A DNA stretch of 64,000 nt from Halorubrum salsamenti (GTDB lineage: Archaea; Halobacteriota; Halobacteria; Halobacteriales; Haloferacaceae). A program made the translations under genes and the position numbers. The stretch lies in contig NZ_VCNL01000006.1 of assembly GCF_007671685.1 (NCBI RefSeq), positions 62,001-126,000 on the forward strand, read 5' to 3'. The notes beneath the pieces are model-generated. The model searched no databases. It was not told where the DNA came from and was given only the letters and a program-made list of their open reading frames with translations. Below, one piece after another: positions 4,826 through 63,440 of this stretch (position 1 is its first letter; each line of letters begins with the position of its first letter).

Positions 4826-6556
4826 TCAGTTCACCCCCTCCCCGTCCGCCCCGTCATCGACGAGGCCGTCGCCGGAGCCATCGTCGACCCCGTTCTCGTG
4901 CGAGAAGTCGAAGGGACTGTCGGCGGCCCCCCCATCGGGCCCCCCGTCTGAGATCGCGGTTGCGGTGCCGTCGGCGCCGCTATCGCGGCGGCCGTCTCCG
5001 TCGCCTACAGCGCCTGACGCGGCGTCGAGACCGTCGGCGGCCGCGAACTCGAAGTCGTCGACCGCGTCGCGCAGCGCGAGCGCGCGGTCCGACAGCGACC
5101 CGGCCGCGGTCTCGACCGCGCCGAGGGTCTGTTCCTGCTCGTCGACCGCGCCGGTCACGTCGCCGGCCGCGCTCGCGGTCTGCGCGCTGATCGCGGAGAC
5201 GTCCTCGACGTGGCCGACCACCGCGTCCACGGAGTCGGCCTGCGTCTCGGTCGCTCGGGTGATCTCGGTCATGCTCGTGTCGGTCCGTTCGGAGGCCTCC
5301 GCGAGGCGTTCGAGCGCGTCGATCGACGTCTCGACGGTGTCGACGCCGGCGGAGATTCGCTGTTCGGTGCGCGCCATCGCGTCGGCGCCCGTCTCCGCGC
5401 GCTCCTGGACGGAATGGATCCGGGCCTCGATCTCGCCCGCCGACTCCTGCGTCTCCTCGGCCAGCGCCTTCACCTCCTCGGCGACGACCGCGAAGCCGGC
5501 GCCGTCGGCGCCGGAGCGGGCCGCCTCGATGGAGGCGTTGAGCGCGAGCAGGTTCGTCTGTTCGGCGATCTCCGAGATGGTGTCGACCACCTCGCCGATC
5601 TCCTCGACCTCCTCGGCGAGCGCCTCGACCTCAGCGGTCGTCTCCGCGGTCGTCTCCTCGACCGCGTCCATCTCCGCGAGCGCCTCCTCGGCGGCCTCGC
5701 GGCCCTCCTCGCCGACGGCGGCGGCGTGCTCGGCGGTCTCCGCCACGTCGGTGACAGTGGACGCGACCTCCTCGGCCGACGACGCGAGGTTCTCGGCCTC
5801 GTCGGTCGCCGCCTGCAGGTCGTCGCGCTGGGTGCGAGCGCCCTCGGCGATCTCCTCGACCGCCTCGCTCACGGTGCCGGTCGTCGCCCGCAGGCTCTCC
5901 GTGCGGTCGTCGACGGTGCCGGCCACGTCGGCGGTGTCCTCGGCGACGGTCGCGACGGAGGCGACCGTCCCCTCCAGCTCGTCGGCCATCTCGTTGAACG
6001 CGGCGCCGACCCGCGCCATCGCCTCGTTGTCGCTCTCGGGGTCGACGCGTCGGGTCAGGTCGCCGTCGGCGAGCGCGCGCATCGCCGACTCGTACTCGGT
6101 CGCCTTGCGCTCGACCGTCTCGGCTCGGTCGGTCGCCTCCCGGCGCGCCCGTTCCGCCTCCTCGCGGGCTCGCTCGGCGTCGTCGATTTCGGACCGAAGC
6201 GAGCCGCGCATGGCGTCGAACGCCCGGAACAGCCGGCCGACCTCGTCGGTTCGTCCCGTCTCCAGCGTCACGTCGAGGTCCCCCTCGGCCATCCGCTCGG
6301 CCTTGGCCGTGAGCTGCCGCAGGGAGATGACCGTGTTCGATCCGACGGTGACGCCGATGAGCGCGAGACCGATCACCGTCAACAGCGTCATCCCCACGAG
6401 CCCGGAGCGGACCTCCGCGCCCGCGGCCCCGGCCTCCTCCGCGCGGAGGTAGACGATGACCCCGTATGAAACTGAGACCCCCGTGACCCCGATCAGCGAC
6501 AGCGCGAGCTTCGCGCCGTAACTGGATCGGACGCCGGAGGACGATCCCTCTTGCAT
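4826..6556 (-). CDS. htrII: Sensory rhodopsin II transducer (methyl-accepting)
   Basis: A 576-residue chemotaxis-type transducer, the signalling partner of the rhodopsin that follows it. Two membrane helices (about 17-37 and 51-72) are joined by only about a dozen residues, so there is no extracellular ligand domain, as in the Natronomonas HtrII and unlike the larger Halobacterium one. HAMP-like regions lie at about 75-125 and 155-200, followed by a long coiled coil. The conserved CheA/CheW-binding tip [18 protein letters not shown] is at about 332-349. It overlaps no other gene upstream, and a TTATTATG box about 35 bases before the start is the likely promoter of the pair. Confidence 0.93.
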
Positions 6557-62079: not shown

Positions 62080-62829
62080 CTACGCCAGATCCGCGACCAT
62101 CTCGGAGACGTATGCGGTCTCCTCCTCGTTGATCCCGTGACCCATCCCCTCGTAGATCCGGGTCTCGACGTCGCCGCCGAGCGCCGATAACACGTCGGCG
62201 GTCTCGTGGACCCGCTCCTCGGGGACGTGCGGGTCGACGTCGCTACACCCGAGGAACGCCGGCGTCCCCGCGAGTGCGTCGGCGGCGTCCCCGTCGACCG
62301 CGGCTGCCGCGCGAGAGACGTAGTCGTCGACGGCGACGGACTCGCCGATCAGCCCGCCGCTCAGAACCGCGAGCCCGCCGTATCGGGTCGGATTTTGCGC
62401 GACGAACTCGCTCGCGAGGCAGGCGCCCTGCGAGAAGCCGACGACGAGGACGCGCTCGGCGGGAATCCCAGCGTCCGTCGCGGTCTCGACCGCGCGACCG
62501 ACCGCCCGCAGCCCGGAGCTTCGGCCGGGCTCGTTGTCCGCGACGGGCGCGAGGAAGGAGTTCGGATACCACGTGTTCGCCGCCGCCTGCGGCGCGAGTA
62601 GTGAGAGACCGAAGGTCTCTCTGACAGCCGGCGGCTTCGCCGCCGGCGAGAGCGCGACATCGCGGTCGCCCGCGATCTCCTCCCCGAACTCGACGATACC
62701 GCGCGCGGTCGCGCCGCGACCGTGAACGAGGACGACGGCGGCGTCCGCCGACTCGACGTCGGTCCCGGCGGTCACCAGCGGTTCGTCCGCGTGCGGGTCG
62801 TCGCCCGAGTGCTTCGATCCCCGGCTCAT
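62080..62829 (-). CDS. Phospholipase/carboxylesterase-like alpha/beta hydrolase
   Basis: A 249-residue hydrolase with nucleophile GFSQGACLA (about 128-136), Asp in CSDVDPH (about 199-205) and His in EGMGHGI (about 229-235). The N-terminal strand AAVVLVHGRGATARGIVEFG is normal. Residues 61-77, SPAAKPPAVRETFGLSL, form an insertion where homologues go straight from VAL to LAPQ; the DNA there is a 51-bp palindromic segment (separate entry). The stop is 35 bases from SpoVR's. It overlaps the VOC gene by four bases, a pair resembling MhqD-MhqO. The substrate may be a small ester. Confidence 0.88.
   Translation of the reverse strand: MSRGSKHSGDDPHADEPLVTAGTDVESADAAVVLVHGRGATARGIVEFGEEIAGDRDVALSPAAKPPAVRETFGLSLLAPQAAANTWYPNSFLAPVADNEPGRSSGLRAVGRAVETATDAGIPAERVLVVGFSQGACLASEFVAQNPTRYGGLAVLSGGLIGESVAVDDYVSRAAAAVDGDAADALAGTPAFLGCSDVDPHVPEERVHETADVLSALGGDVETRIYEGMGHGINEEETAYVSEMVADLA
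62599..62649. mobile_element. 51-bp palindromic insertion inside the esterase
   Basis: Two perfect hairpins make up the segment: GAGAGACC-GAA-GGTCTCTC (62603-62621) and GCCGGCGGC-TTC-GCCGCCGGC (62627-62647). It is flanked by GAG on both sides (62596-62598 and 62650-62652), which could be a 3-bp target duplication. Removing it would restore the normal homologue sequence ALLAPQ in frame. The length is a multiple of three, so the gene remains open. It looks like a tiny non-autonomous repeat. Confidence 0.7.
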
Positions 62830-63440
62830 ACGCCGACGCCCGCGTCGGCGTCGGGCAGATCGTACTTGTTCACCGGAAGTCCGAGCTCCTCCAAGGCGGC
62901 CTCCATGTGACGGTCCTGCGCGAAGTCGGCGCCGTCCTCCTCGCGGATGCGCTGGGCGGTCGCGAGCACCTCGCCCTTGCGGTCGTCCGGGATCTCGTAC
63001 TTGTCCGAGGAGAGCTCGATGACGAGCCCGTTGTTGTCCTGCGTGTAGATCGAGTGGAAGATCCCTCGGTCGAACACGTTGTATCCCTTCCCGGCCTCTT
63101 CGAGCGCCGCCATGATGTCCTCGTACTCGTCGGGGTCGACGCTGAAACAGAGGTGGTGAACGGCACCGGTGCCGGCGCGCTGGCCGCGCGCGGACGGCCG
63201 ATCATCGCTCACGAAGAACGTCAGGATCCGCCCGTCGCCGGTGTCGAAGAACAGGTGCGTCTGCGAGGGGTCGTCGAGGTTCGGCTGACGGAGGACGAGC
63301 GGCATGCCGAGCAGGTCGCGGTAGAACGCGATCGTGTCGGCCTCGTTGCTCCCCCAAACGGTGATGTGATCGGTACCGGTGGTGTGGAACGGTGCGTCCG
63401 GACGCTCCGGAGTGACCGGAGCCGGGATGTCGTCGCTCAT
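62826..63440 (-). CDS. VOC-family glyoxalase/dioxygenase
   Basis: A 204-residue metalloenzyme of the vicinal oxygen chelate superfamily with two paired modules. The first metal ligand is in TTGTDHITVWG (His24), a second in TGAVHHLCFSV (His about 99), and the final Glu in DNNGLVIELSSD. The RFYRDLLGM-like motif AFYRDLLGMPLVLRQPNLDD fits ring-cleaving dioxygenases. With the following esterase, whose start it overlaps, it resembles the MhqO-MhqD pair that handles hydroquinones. Promoter: a TTTATACG-like box before the start, read on the minus strand. Confidence 0.88.
   Translation of the reverse strand: MSDDIPAPVTPERPDAPFHTTGTDHITVWGSNEADTIAFYRDLLGMPLVLRQPNLDDPSQTHLFFDTGDGRILTFFVSDDRPSARGQRAGTGAVHHLCFSVDPDEYEDIMAALEEAGKGYNVFDRGIFHSIYTQDNNGLVIELSSDKYEIPDDRKGEVLATAQRIREEDGADFAQDRHMEAALEELGLPVNKYDLPDADAGVGV

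Follow-up and report, generated by a model that had tools for sequence, protein, structure and literature searches.

The esterase gene and its insert

The minus strand of the window, by which we mean the whole 64,000-nucleotide stretch analysed, carries a phospholipase/carboxylesterase-family gene that contains a two-hairpin insert. The features at this locus are as follows.

62080-62829, minus strand: phospholipase/carboxylesterase-family gene, a 249-residue open reading frame (Abhydrolase_2, PF02230), of which the insert makes up residues 61-77, SPAAKPPAVRETFGLSL
62581-62594, plus strand: native short palindrome CGCCGCCTGCGGCG, directly 5' of the insertion point, from sequence
62596-62598, plus strand: left flank GAG, native to the esterase gene (target), found in empty sites
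62599-62649, plus strand: 51-nt double-hairpin module (YAG...GGCGA), antisense to the esterase gene, matching the covariance model over its full length at 77.4 bits
62603-62621, plus strand: hairpin 1, GAGAGACC-GAA-GGTCTCTC, 8 bp, from sequence and folding
62627-62647, plus strand: hairpin 2, GCCGGCGGC-TTC-GCCGCCGGC, 9 bp, from sequence and folding
62650-62652, plus strand: right flank GAG, native to the esterase gene (target), found in empty sites

On the plus strand the module reads TAGT-GAGAGACC-GAA-GGTCTCTC-TGACA-GCCGGCGGC-TTC-GCCGCCGGC-GA. An earlier note on this DNA had described two perfect palindromes in tandem, with GAG on either side, in an insert divisible by three and free of stops. 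This description holds throughout: both stems are perfect, each GAG is in place, and the 51 nt amount to 17 codons with no stop in the reading frame. Compared with shuffled sequences the module folds strongly (z of -5.0 as RNA and -5.8 as DNA), none of the 200 shuffles equalling it.

In the protein, the peptide spanning the insert reads, for example, ETFGLSLLAPQAAANTWYPNSF..., and the blocks that match 4h0c, the closest solved relative, are separated by 25 residues as against 7 in that structure. This alignment suggests that the insert would sit in a loop of the esterase fold; an AlphaFold model computed from three sequences had a mean pLDDT of 43, too low to be of use. The esterase start codon overlaps the stop codon of an upstream glyoxalase-like gene (62826-63440, minus strand) by four bases (62826-62829), and because of this overlap the two genes are probably co-transcribed.

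The earlier note had also stated that removing the insert restores the family sequence. Excision of the 51 nt gives GATGTCGCGCTC|CTCGCGCCGCAGGCG, which is the empty site of the relative G031 save for two upstream flank bases, and the claim is thus upheld to within those two bases. Both GAG flanks are already present in the empty site (GAG|GAG), so the esterase insertion produced no target duplication. Alignment of 36 species of the genus shows the insert in 11, always at one and the same codon boundary, and an empty site, GCG CTC|CTC GCG or a near variant, in the other 25, so the insert is not a universally conserved loop. H. saccharovorum DSM 1137 (locus L246) is one species whose esterase has the insert. 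Its length is not fixed among carriers either, with a 48-nt version in G026 and an additional 12-nt in-frame deletion within hairpin 2 in G005.

On an esterase tree built without the insert columns, presence of the insert is patchy, requiring 8 changes, of which at least 4 are forced by well-supported branches. In one clade with 100/100 support, G026 is filled and the ten other members are empty. Haloarchaea exchange genes freely, and part of this patchiness may therefore reflect exchange of alleles. Judged on the tree alone, the pattern may fit repeated gain, loss or allele exchange alike.

Modules between genes and within them

That further copies of the insert exist, as the earlier note had anticipated, is confirmed. 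Searching with the element plus flanking sequence gave copies scattered over this genome, and 34 of 59 genomes had matches; a covariance model built from 41 modules finds about 56 in this genome. Under a stricter cut-off the same model gives 0-73 modules per sampled species of the genus; the highest counts overall were 79 in G026 and 77 in G005 (range 0-79). The family comprises modules of 45-51 nt with two hairpins and usual ends of YAG at the 5' side and GGYGA at the 3' side, and these ends are constant in both orientations. Stem sequences of hairpin 1 vary among copies with pairing kept, five of its eight pairs being altered on both sides across the 41 copies. Over the whole structure 97.3% of cells are paired and 32 are changed on both sides, a level that none of 500 shuffles attained.

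When 85,000 species genomes were scanned for an exact pattern, at least 80 loci matched, and those listed were all from Halorubrum except two from Halobellus salinus. Of 391 genomes of the class, 42 contain the 45-nt pattern; they come from 12 of 86 genera, and the reversed control gave zero. The first module pattern had no exact match in IMG/VR, and on this result spread by viruses was set aside; a plasmid search returned only esterase homologues.

Nearly all modules in this genome are intergenic. A codon-usage test of 56 copies scored only the esterase copy as coding, a test that misses the copy in a zf-CHY gene, which lies near the gene end and was found by reading. The intergenic modules mostly occupy set positions, in either orientation, within a larger hairpin-rich host repeat that starts GCGGTGGCGCGYGCC, some 20 nt past a TATA-like TTATAA, and often ends GGGGCTTTGGAGGTGTTCACCG. 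This host repeat was present in 35 of 35 genus genomes searched, module-poor ones included, as well as in some other genera. Orthologous host repeats differ in the modules they hold (L244 compared with G000:C12:98326; L238 compared with L135). The intergenic copies share subfamilies according to site, which argues that many spread with the host repeat and not singly. Copies at site 1 read GAGTAG at their 5' foot, and most others read CAG.

The empty esterase site, GGCGCGAG|GAGCGCG, is closely similar to host-repeat site 1. An empty host-repeat copy (G000:C12:58766) matches the esterase target at all but one or two of 15 bases, and the 464 kb scanned contained no exact copy of the esterase-target 15-mer. 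Site 1 likewise follows a hairpin, just as the esterase target follows the native palindrome.

The host repeat itself spans about 100-330 nt, is full of hairpins and has TATA-like boxes on both sides (G000:C12:58766-59021), and contig C12 has about 19 matches to its end motif over 400 kb (loci L102-L121). It might represent a non-coding RNA present in many copies, or an array of repeats. An Rfam search of the window and five host-repeat loci found two tRNAs and no family match to the repeat, and a known structured RNA was rejected on this ground. Tandem 16-bp repeats of TTATGAGCGGATCGTC stand immediately upstream of the host repeat in L016 (around 1350-1500; G000:C1 near 7400). At three loci a stretch of host repeat is tandemly duplicated beside a single N (L043, 1390-1570; L244, around 6330-6440; L263, around 6239-6392), and these duplications are probably assembly errors at hairpin-rich DNA.

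The earlier note's suggestion that such a repeat can colonise coding DNA is strengthened by the 45-nt form, AGCGAGGGACNNNGTCCCTC..., which 25 of 44 genus genomes contain and which lies in frame in at least seven gene families besides the esterase, though most copies of the module are intergenic. By Pfam, its hosts are PurD, zf-CHY, DUF7095, a histidine kinase, 5-formyl-THF cyclo-ligase, a MerA-like reductase and a DEAD/Lhr-like helicase, the last at two sites. About two thirds of the 30 loci read for this form fall in open frames of recognisable genes, and G026 has additional copies in kinase-, cyclo-ligase- and DUF7095-type genes. Inserts were divisible by three at 9 of 9 ORF sites compared with 20 of 54 intergenic copies (37%) in this genome; the ORF sites had been picked because they read through, and the statistical contrast is therefore indicative only. 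The 45-nt form has five open frames out of six, and the copies in ORFs use the most acidic of them, DSEGxSPSGNRASPGD. The target GA|C lies inside an Asp codon and may also set the phase of this form; a target duplication of 2-3 bp is possible at such GA|C sites.

Filled and empty homologues were compared for three of the eight gene families, namely the esterase, PurD and zf-CHY. The PurD insert is present in 2 of 43 genomes, as 45 nt in G031 (L374) and 90 nt in G023 (L370/L373), thirteen of the empty sites having been read base by base and the remainder assessed by where the protein match is interrupted; the insertion in purD is probably recent. In zf-CHY (PF05495; L155, at G000:C12:613087-613509, with relatives L174-L203) two conserved blocks lie 3 or 6 nt apart in fourteen species, whereas sixteen others have a spacer of 48-54, 90-93 or 135-138 nt. 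These spacers correspond to 0-3 modules in steps of 45 nt. Some of these modules sit inside an older module, separating its two hairpins. Modules also abut head to tail in G005 (C1:10046-10143, C25:39328-39423 and C12:148358-148451), as they do in the zf-CHY gene.

How the modules may spread

From comparison of sequences, we consider it likely, with a probability of roughly 0.8, that the esterase insert belongs to a family of mobile palindromes that are very short and non-autonomous. The miniature mobile repeat proposed in the earlier note is supported by many dispersed copies and a majority of homologues that lack the insert. Modules land preferentially beside the feet of hairpins or at GA(G) sequences, and both tandem and nested insertions occur. 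Taken together, the constant ends, the precise insertion in either orientation, and the stacking and nesting suggest a process in which hairpins and their feet are recognised. One way to view this process is as copying of a single strand by a trans-acting enzyme for which the hairpins and fixed ends serve as signals, as they do for REP or IS200-type elements, a proposal we hold tentatively, at a little under even odds. The copying step would probably be a reaction on single-stranded DNA. Copies would occasionally land in genes, and those in frame that encode a harmless, mostly hydrophilic loop peptide would survive selection.

No transposition event was observed, and neither an autonomous parent element nor a mobilising enzyme turned up. 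Across 35 genomes, counts of Y1_Tnp matches, which pool RAYT and IS200 TnpA, did not correlate with module counts (rho -0.03), and two module-rich genomes, G005 and G027, lack any Y1_Tnp match. None of the 12 Y1 loci tested had a module nearby. A Y1_Tnp transposase was rejected as the mobiliser on both counts, correlation and proximity.

Alternatively, replication or repair could have carried modules out of the host repeat and into genes by template switching or ectopic gene conversion, a route that uses short shared flanks and hairpin-stalled forks and needs no transposase. The close likeness of the empty esterase site to host-repeat site 1 favours such a route, as do the lack of target duplication in the esterase and the failure to find a mobiliser. 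However, the PurD and zf-CHY targets share no more than about GA|C with the donor flanks, and the module ends are identical everywhere despite these dissimilar flanks, which suggests defined termini; we regard this route as possible but rather unlikely. Less probable still is that the module is a remnant resembling the PATEs of Haloquadratum, a terminal-only IS200/IS605 derivative in which left and right end hairpins have fused and which is moved by TnpA. Two hairpins, a length of about 50 bp and no target duplication would all suit such an origin, the terminal-only PATEs being 52 bp (PMC3119063), but no longer element bearing the module ends was met, and the Y1_Tnp results just given, on both proximity and correlation, speak against it.

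Two further explanations concern the gene product, and both seem to us highly improbable. The ribosome might skip the transcribed hairpin by translational bypassing, as with elements in yeast mitochondrial genes; palindromic elements within genes are reportedly bypassed in Magnusiomyces mitochondria (as cited in PMC6649704). Bypassing would, however, require neither a preserved frame nor freedom from stops, and every ORF insert found is a multiple of three and stop-free, the 12-nt deletion in G005 also keeping the frame; these constraints count against it. The idea that this esterase subfamily has simply conserved a structural loop, palindromic by chance, can be virtually dismissed: eleven species do have the insert at one site, but several of the 25 species without it are nested among the carriers, and sequences of this type are scattered through intergenic DNA.

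Relation to known palindromic repeats

Stable palindromes in coding DNA are rare, the clear precedent being Rickettsia (PMC6649704). A mobile palindrome family, as we prefer to read the modules, would have its nearest parallel in the Rickettsia palindromic elements (RPEs), likened here by behaviour and description and not by sequence. Like the modules, RPEs are small palindromes found between genes and in frame in unrelated genes, whose hosts keep an open frame and whose presence varies by species (PMC10969869, PMC6649704). Two features of an RPE-type element are found here too, in that one repeat family occupies intergenic DNA and also lies in frame in unrelated genes, and homologues of the esterase, PurD and zf-CHY differ only by the insert. 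RPEs are about 150 bp and bacterial, whereas the modules are 45-51 nt, have two separate hairpins and are archaeal; the modules also, unlike RPEs, stack in tandem, nest and hold fixed positions in a larger repeat.

REP and BIME sequences resemble the modules in being short hairpins with a conserved foot tag, mostly intergenic and arranged in arrays, and some REPs are intragenic (PMC3733652). REPs, however, are hairpins of 20-40 bp tagged GTAG or CGTC, whereas the module is a hairpin pair ending GGYGA, and REPs have RAYT transposases, whereas the modules showed no association with Y1-type transposases at the 12 loci or across the 35 genomes. The GAGTAG foot of the site-1 copies may answer to the GTAG tag, but the CAG of most other copies does not. 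The PATEs and small mobile repeats of Haloquadratum walsbyi are, like the modules, haloarchaeal, palindromic, transposase-free and without target duplication (PMC3119063). PATE palindromes resemble IS605 ends and the small mobile repeats have terminal inverted repeats, neither of which was seen in the modules on the tests made, which for IS605-type ends covered the 12 Y1 loci. The marks of a MITE were absent as well, the termini not being inverted (YAG and GGYGA) and the esterase site having no target duplication.

In the literature on Halorubrum, haloarchaeal repeats and coding palindromes, most subscription journals and preprints lying outside its scope, we found no report of the module family and no archaeal precedent. 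More speculatively, active, enzyme-driven palindromes in haloarchaea might continually insert peptides of 15 to 17 residues into housekeeping proteins, with the 45-nt form tuned for an acidic, salt-tolerant and stop-free loop. Such a system would generate protein loops naturally and would give Archaea their first protein-coding palindromic element, a view that we think is rather less likely to be right than wrong. A counterpart of RPEs in free-living archaea, with species grown in the laboratory and many filled and empty pairs, makes movement, protein tolerance and the usefulness of the loops testable. The zf-CHY site, which holds 0, 1, 2 or 3 modules in 45-nt steps, provides a ready record of the stepwise lengthening of a protein.
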